Source: Palaeococcus ferrophilus DSM 13482
GTDB taxonomy: Archaea; Methanobacteriota_B; Thermococci; Thermococcales; Thermococcaceae
Assembly (NCBI RefSeq): GCF_000966265.1
Contig: NZ_LANF01000010.1
Location: forward strand, 64,001-128,000
Length of the DNA stretch: 64,000 bases
Direction of reading: 5' to 3'
The notes beneath the pieces were generated by a model, which was given only the letters and a program-made list of their open reading frames with translations, was not told the origin of the DNA and made no database searches. Shown one piece after another: positions 40,293 to 55,541 of this stretch (positions within the stretch are counted from its first letter, which is position 1; each line of letters starts with the position of its first letter). The position numbers were made by a program, and so were the translations under genes.

Positions 40293-40448
40293 CTCGTTCC
40301 CTCCTTCCATGTTTGTGGTTCTCCCTTACGGGAACATCCCGCGGGTCTACCCCGCCAAGTCATGGGAAGTTCGAGGTTGGGTTTTTAAGGGTTGCGGAAT
40401 TAGGTGCTGAACCTCAAATGTTCTCAAACCCTGTGAACAGCCGGAACT

Positions 40449-54643: not shown

Positions 54644-54779
54644 AGCTACCAATCCCTCACTTCTTCAATCCGCTCCTGATGCCAAATGTTTGAGTATATT
54701 TTCAGTATCCCATGAGTTTCACTTGTGGAACCAAATGAACGGGTGGAAAGTTTCGGGTAGGGGGTGTACGTTTTCATGG

Positions 54780-55211
54780 GGAAGCCCGCTAAAGTCTTTA
54801 TTGCCTTCCCGCTGACCTCCTCCCCGTCGTGAATGGCGAGGGTTCCAGCGGTTTAACCCCTCGCCTTAACTTTTCGGGAGGTTTACGGGCGACTCATAAC
54901 CTACTCGGCGTTACCGCCATCTGGTTCAACCCGAGGGGACGGTCTCGCCCCCGTTACCCTCCCCAAAGGGGAATGTGGGGTTATGCTTTGAGAGGCCAAA
55001 CCTTTGGTTTTTGACCGCTTCATCGGGCAGTTTTTGAAGGACGCTTAACAGCGTCCTGACCACTTCGAGGAAGAGTGGTAACGTTAAACCTCTCATCTCA
55101 TCGGGTTTCCAACTTTGGTCTCTCCGAGGTCTTATTATACTTTAAAAGTATTTAAGGATTTTTGAGAATGTAATTTTTCAAACACTTCATCCCCACCCTA
55201 AAGGGCGAGGC
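54780..55211. ncRNA. Hairpin-rich non-coding element, possible IS200/IS605-derived remnant or omega-RNA-like RNA
   Basis: This ~560-bp gap (54644-55211) has no plausible gene but is GC-rich and contains a run of perfect short hairpins: 54835-54865 (GGCGAGG/CCTCGCC), 54932-54947 (CGAG/CTCG), 54961-54971 (CCCC/GGGG), 54996-55007 (CCAAA/TTTGG), 55039-55056 (GGACGC/GCGTCC), 55059-55079 (ACCACT/AGTGGT). It ends in CTTCATCCCCACCCTAAAGGGCGAGGCTTTC-like sequence with the hairpin CCCT/AGGG (55196-55205), which from memory resembles right ends of IS200/IS605 elements in Thermococcales. A minus-strand TATA (55140-55157) could drive transcription leftward. Orientation and class are uncertain. Confidence 0.5.
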
Positions 55212-55541
55212 TTTCAAAAGAAAAAGAATAACCTAAGGGAGGAGATTTTCGAAGCCCTCTTCGGCGAGAAGGACGACCTGCACTACTTCCCGCTGGAAAA
55301 GCTGACGGACTCCGTGGAACGCGCCGGAGGAAGAATCGTTGAGAGCGGAACCTTTGAGCCCAACCTGCCGCACTACCTCGCATACATACCGCAGAAGTAC
55401 GCAGCACAGATAAAAGACGAGAAAAAGCGCGCCGAACTCCTGGAGCGCTTGGGTAGGGCCTATGAAAAGTGGAAAAACGGGGCCGAGCATCCACCCGTGG
55501 GATGGCTGGTTGCCGAAAGCGAGGCCAACCGAAAACCTTAA
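55212..55541 (+). pseudogene. C-terminal fragment, possibly a class I SAM methyltransferase
   Basis: A 109-codon open frame ending in TAA at 55539-55541 begins without a start codon exactly where the hairpin element ends (in-frame codons follow 55212); a later ATG gives only 75 residues. The segment YFPLEKLTDSVERAGGRIVESGTF, then PHYLAYIPQKYA and the ending EHPPVGWLVAE, resemble the C-terminal subdomain of archaeal class I methyltransferases. The N-terminal Rossmann part is absent. I infer that the gene was cut by insertion of the element or by deletion. Family assignment is weak. Confidence 0.4.

Follow-up and report, generated by a model that had tools for sequence, protein, structure and literature searches.

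A tnpB-less IS200/IS605-type element of Palaeococcus ferrophilus with a putative guide-RNA gene

TnpB, the ancestor of Cas12, is thought to hold its transposon in place by cutting the site that the transposon has vacated, and the ends of IS608 and ISDra2 suffice for mobilisation by TnpA. Guides acting in trans have reportedly been found for IscB. PATEs (PMC3119063) and omegaRNAs are already known, and circular omegaRNAs of IS200/IS605 elements have been described in haloarchaea (PMC12558985). TnpB trims its own mRNA to make the omegaRNA (PMC10278001). Searches of openly accessible papers gave no description of the element family presented below, of tnpB-less elements with a selected guide-RNA gene, or of HgcC as an omegaRNA.

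We analysed a window of 64,000 nucleotides from P. ferrophilus DSM 13482, to which all positions refer. Between 54812 and 55227 it holds, on the minus strand, one complete IS200/IS605-type element of 416 bp without tnpA or tnpB, its left end at 55227 and its right end at 54812, as delimited by copy alignment, autonomous copies and empty sites. A blastn search with 54700–55260 against relatives returned full-length copies of about 400 bp at 66–79% identity, at least 10 of them in one genome. The alignment of 21 copies has abrupt limits, one at GAGGTCAG and the opposite one in the stretch that separates TTAC from TCTTTTGAAAG. Similarly, five near-identical tnpA-tnpB copies in genome G113 have in common a sequence that runs from TTTTTCTTCTGAAAG, directly after TTAC, to the end of GAGGTCAG, and share nothing outside it. 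Since the borders are fixed by the copy alignment and these autonomous copies, the hairpin at 55191–55210 (minus strand; CCTCGCCCTTTAGGGTGGGG, kept across copies) belongs to the left end and 54815–54850 to the right end. A preliminary description of the locus had rightly reported an IS200/IS605-type terminal hairpin at the former position but mistaken its place, as it is the left end on the minus strand; it had also extended the element to 55541, although the element stops at 55227, and had read 54815–54850 as a second right-end-like stretch of a compound element. This stretch forms the element's own right end; a compound element with two right ends is ruled out, the single element having one left and one right end. 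The right-end hairpin (54822–54841, minus strand) is an alternative pairing to an RNA stem at 54835–54865, and both pairings were counted. The left end region (55132–55227, minus strand) is common to tnpB elements, blastn query positions 433–526 matching the left ends of tnpB loci.

The GC content rises to 59% at 54800–54999 against 41–44% in the flanking windows, the GC-rich part being 54812–55131. ORF inspection gave no convincing ORF or protein gene inside the element, in agreement with the preliminary description, and no Rfam gathering match or tRNA was found inside it. The sole Rfam gathering match in the window is an eL15-Euryarchaeota ribosomal protein leader (RF03144, 39.4 bits) at 40312–40355 on the minus strand. 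Positions 54812–55131 correspond to a structured RNA of about 320 nt on the minus strand, predicted to continue into the 3′ flank and marked by fold z-score, covariation and G.U bias. Its folding energy was −128.6 kcal/mol, against −104.5 ± 5.6 kcal/mol for shuffled sequences (z −4.3 on the minus strand and −3.1 on the plus strand). The GC-rich structured region announced earlier thus stands for its composition and folding, but not for its hairpin count, which is not significant taken alone: six perfect hairpins had been claimed, and our own scan (stem of at least 5, loop of 3–8) gave four, against 2.5 ± 1.4 in shuffles. The features that exceed random expectation are how stably the region folds and how its copies covary, rather than the number of perfect hairpins. 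In 19 copies, a ten-helix structure had 95.8% of its cells paired, compared with 41–49% when slid, and 14 pairs showed double changes.

Upstream of the conserved 5′ hairpin lies a predicted archaeal promoter (55149–55162, minus strand; BRE AAAATCC and TATA TTAAATA), whose spacing from the RNA start is nearly constant over 65 aligned rows and whose consensus is GAAACCCTTTTAAA. The position of the TATA box allows any of the first few bases of this hairpin as the putative RNA start. The BRE/TATA position is common to tnpB elements, within the shared left end, and there would serve tnpB.

The 5′ domain of the RNA, D1 (54985–55131, minus strand), occurs in tnpB-less copies only and was the basis of covariance model R1. 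It contains a 5′ hairpin (55117–55131) and further hairpins at 55060–55078, 55038–55057 and 55014–55031, all on the minus strand and indicated by covariation. Among 67 distinct copies, 15 of 25 pairs had double changes, in 158 cells altogether (shuffles: 45), and none of 500 shuffles reached the observed values; the alignment was fitted to the model and leans towards it, and alignment A1, made without structure, agrees. The local 5′ hairpin had double changes in all five modelled pairs; the window copy has lost two of its six pairs. An alternative long-range pairing between the 5′ end and the right end (GACCUC/GAGGUC) paired in 98% of cells but never changed on both sides in 19 copies, and the local hairpin was preferred. 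A degraded protein gene, named beforehand as an outcome that would overturn the description, is ruled out by these structure-preserving changes and the absence of an ORF: the domain covaries as an RNA. Nor was D1 retained as a tnpB remnant, R1 giving weak matches only (E 0.03–0.9), always at the same position close to the 3′ end of tnpB. At several homologous tnpB loci these concern mainly the shared AUAACCC junction, and D1 is therefore without clear tnpB counterpart. It also contains, at 55087–55107 (minus strand), the GAU..UGA motif AACCCGATGAGATGAGAGGTT, which we take to be K-loop-like; the motif CCGATGAGRYRA is found in 40 of 60 copies, and this sequence hints at L7Ae as a possible partner.

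With model R1 we detected 185 D1 copies in 48 of 94 Thermococcaceae genomes, with the same outcome when the search was repeated, so that the homologous copies whose absence was to count against the description do exist. D1 was absent from all 21 other genomes of the class searched with this model, and in the five genomes checked no D1 copy adjoined a tnpB match. The element gave no match in plasmids and phages; viral contigs had no match to one pattern, and a one-pattern scan of genome contigs found five Thermococcales metagenome contigs and no others. The copies of genome G015 (L031–L040) look mosaic, with blocks shared in varying combinations, as if they recombined or converted each other.

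The rest of the RNA, D2 (54812–54984, minus strand; model R2), corresponds by homology to the 3′ end of tnpB elements; it is an omegaRNA scaffold and takes in the right end. Both ends of the element match full tnpB and tnpA-tnpB elements of this and other genomes, with sub-terminal hairpins as in PATEs: the match takes in 95 bp at the left extremity and about 150–170 bp at the right one, and the middle is unmatched. The stop codon of tnpB, where the gene is present, falls inside the right end, which thus doubles as 3′ coding end and omegaRNA. Although R2 was built from tnpB-less copies only, it recovered every one of the 30 cognate tnpB ends (E 5e-18 to 9e-38); three non-cognate tnpB loci gave no match. 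In a joint alignment of 46 sequences, two helices differ in pair type on both sides between the tnpB-less and the tnpB groups. The GGUC just before the predicted guide (54814–54817, minus strand) pairs with a GACC/GGCC hairpin loop 117–131 nt upstream (GACC at 54941–54944, minus strand) in 46 of 46 rows; with few changes and pairing kept, this pseudoknot is supported by conservation more than by covariation. A comparable one is found in the ISDra2 omegaRNA (PMC10097598). Shared ends and scaffold homology support the earlier suggestion of a non-autonomous, tnpB-less element whose structured RNA is related to the guide RNA of TnpB.

Helix exchanges in D2 went through G.U rather than A.C at a ratio of 30:1. 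The RNA is thereby assigned to the minus strand, and a role as DNA alone becomes less likely. The bias is weaker within D1 (39:20) because hairpin H5 tolerates mismatches. These results bear on a simpler scenario, an ordinary PATE: a deletion derivative moved by TnpA only, with the scaffold kept through young copies and as a DNA right end, TnpB being uninvolved. The ends alone are enough for mobilisation by TnpA, some copies sit in genomes without a cognate TnpB, and core deletion is a documented origin of PATEs (PMC3119063). However, D1 lies outside both ends and is nevertheless kept with double compensatory changes across genera, the G.U exchanges of the scaffold are expected of RNA rather than of DNA hairpins, and the pseudoknot, useless for TnpA, persists in every row of the alignment. 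We thus regard this scenario as unlikely.

For the element family and for tnpB ends, Rfam searches gave sub-threshold but significant matches to HgcC and sot0042. HgcC (RF00062, Pyrococcus/Thermococcus) scored 25.8 bits for the window copy and 31.5–42.6 bits for other copies, below the curated cut-off of 50 bits; its 3′ end, GAGGAGGUCAG, is common to the element family. True HgcC, an RNA of 130 nt, differs in its 5′ part and is, in two loci, divergent from a tnpB start. The high-scoring HgcC loci (L069 and L090, also L070, L091 and L071) are short and RNA-gene-like, with a TATA-like box and a GAGGAGGTCAG right end, L069 and L090 being those with the divergent arrangement; HgcC may act as guide RNA in a tnpB design of divergent type. 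Sot0042 (RF02656, a sense overlapping transcript family) matched D2 and the cognate tnpB ends at 24–39 bits against a cut-off of 88. It lies within tnpB and is not known to have D1 or a separate promoter.

Genome G029, which we take to be T. kodakarensis KOD1, belongs to a species with genetics available and has six HgcC-like matches. Three are at its three cognate tnpB ends, one at a D1 copy (1474300–1474447), one directly behind a putative M50-type metalloprotease gene (L223), and there is one more. The D1 copy (about 1474300–1474620, minus strand) lies inside a hypothetical gene, in the same direction, and has no left end. At L223 (about 1620–1690; G029:C1:1630043) we observed a terminal-only element, its left end fused to the right-end hairpin. 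Published transcripts of T. kodakarensis (PMC4247193) place HgcC1–3 inside three transposase genes, HgcC4 where TK1679 begins and HgcC5 within the membrane metalloprotease gene TK1820. Cognate TnpB of this species is the product of TK0298, TK0495 and TK0850. Gene order makes the D1 copy at G029:1474300 the probable source of transcript HgcC4, and the terminal-only element fits HgcC5.

Mobility was examined through the junctions. Directly 5′ of the left end the window copy has TTAT (55228–55231, minus strand) for the usual TTAC; among 35 readable copies, the preceding tetranucleotide was TTAC in 34 and TTAT in one. Joined flanks of 15 copies, searched within the family, yielded nine empty sites in relatives, ungapped or nearly so across the junction (identities 96%, 95%, 95%, 94%, 92%, 89%, 87%, 84% and 83%; the best, 96%, over 160 ungapped bases). 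No target duplication was seen at these sites; insertion is precise and 3′ of a fixed motif, as in PATEs. The element is accordingly no classical MITE, lacking target duplication at the empty sites of family copies and having ends that are not inverted repeats. In genome G032 a copy splits a PH1704-type deglycase gene, and joining its flanks restores the gene, 1g2i matching across the junction. Two pairs of genomes have a copy at a common site (L147/L148 and L160/L167); these insertions predate the species splits or moved with their locus.

The 3′ flanks were distinct in 52 cases among 55 copies. Together with the differing sites and the precise insertions, this shows an RNA that travels as a transposon, with shared sites only between pairs of related species, and it makes quite improbable a domesticated RNA of incidental transposon origin that acts on host mRNAs or proteins, for instance on L7Ae through the K-loop-like motif. 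Such a role would agree with the presence of that motif in many copies, with the retention of D1–D2 in two copies without left end (L038 and L045), and with the T. kodakarensis copy, which lacks the left end and is probably transcribed.

The window copy has no clean empty site. On its left-end side, the plus-strand reading frame that follows 55227 is indeed N-terminally truncated, as had been noticed: homology to an intact protein of 279 residues begins at 55230 with residue 171. The fragment (55230–55541, plus strand) is the C-terminal part of a SAM-methyltransferase-like gene cut by the element and is 84% identical to residues 171–273 of the intact homologue in G015. Residues 1–170 are missing from the far side of the element and from the rest of the window; hence DNA was deleted or rearranged during or after the insertion. 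The same gene is N-terminally truncated in another species of the genus (L104, G001), with different upstream sequence.

Conservation ends at GTCAG and a variable flank follows. From the anatomy, the predicted guide is the first 20 nt of this 3′ flank, CGGGAAGGCAATAAAGACTT (54792–54811, minus strand). As the flank of the window copy is not the remainder of the interrupted gene, this copy may no longer have a target; no second target for its guide occurs within the window.

Cognate TnpB is available in the same genome, in line with the earlier proposal of a TnpB encoded elsewhere: P. ferrophilus has three intact cognate genes of 439–443 codons. Its only Y1 transposase has as neighbour a tnpB of a different type, whose right end also differs, and a Y1 TnpA was detectable in 22 of the 48 genomes with the element. 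Cognate TnpB was found in 42 of 48 genomes with D1 versus 20 of 46 without (Fisher p 8e-6, phylogeny ignored), and copy numbers of D1 element and cognate TnpB correlated (rho 0.65, phylogeny again ignored); this co-occurrence could stem from shared TnpA alone. At the threshold used, six genomes had D1 without cognate TnpB (G028, G035, G074, G092, G104 and G021), some of them incomplete and some with old copies, so the element is able to persist after its helper has gone. The tnpA-tnpB elements of G113 (L206–L210), inserted at five different sites, are a recently active autonomous cousin.

Element copies can outnumber tnpB (14 vs 7 in G015, 6 vs 1 in G115). This would suit an RNA that acts against its helpers, as a decoy titrating TnpB away from full elements or as a regulator of transposition, and so would the mimicry of the omegaRNA scaffold by D2; inhibition of the RNP by part of the tnpB mRNA is on record (PMC10278001). 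Every intact copy, however, retains a right end that runs into a variable flank where a guide would lie, an arrangement for which a decoy would have no use, and we consider such action very improbable.

We favour as likely a PATE-kind non-autonomous IS200/IS605 element that holds the guide-RNA gene alone and uses TnpA and, presumably, TnpB in trans. TnpA of cousin elements would excise and insert the element, and its RNA would load through D2 onto TnpB from cousin elements. The flank would act as guide and TTAC (TTAT for the window copy) as TAM, and the complex would cut the vacated or unoccupied site, composed of TTAC and the flank, with repair restoring the element. Cutting of the vacated site is the role proposed for TnpB (PMC8612924). 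As TnpB trims its own mRNA into omegaRNA, the simplest guess is that D1 is probably a stable 5′ leader that replaces the tnpB frame and lets the RNA work outside tnpB mRNA. The wider reading, which we lean towards with some reserve, is a guide-only transposon family whose copies would be independent guide genes with their own promoter and D1, parasitising TnpA through the DNA ends and TnpB through the RNA. A single cellular TnpB would then take its targets from as many as about 20 different mobile guides; it would be a shared resource, exploited by non-autonomous elements that keep the guide RNA and not the nuclease. Such elements would also form a natural intermediate between guides tied to the gene of their nuclease and the CRISPR arrangement, in which guide genes stand apart, and the long-unexplained HgcC RNAs of Thermococcales would gain a chemical identity.

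Compared with the omegaRNA (reRNA) of ISDra2 TnpB (PMC8612924, PMC10097598), the RNA described here similarly stops at the right end with the flank in guide position, has the target-site motif in the place of the TAM and forms a pseudoknot between pre-guide bases and an upstream loop. Unlike a TnpB omegaRNA, it has its own promoter and about 150 nt of extra 5′ RNA (D1), and lies outside any tnpB 3′ end in a tnpB-less element. A canonical omegaRNA is encoded in the same element as tnpB; because this element contains no tnpB, we class its RNA as related to canonical omegaRNA and not as one. With the PATEs of Haloquadratum walsbyi (PMC3119063) the family shares the absence of a transposase gene and of terminal inverted repeats, IS605-like sub-terminal palindromes, insertion without target duplication and multiple copies. 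In published accounts PATEs are fused ends or core deletions and lack a conserved RNA, whereas the present family has kept, across genera, a promoter, a scaffold of omegaRNA type and, in addition, a covarying domain.
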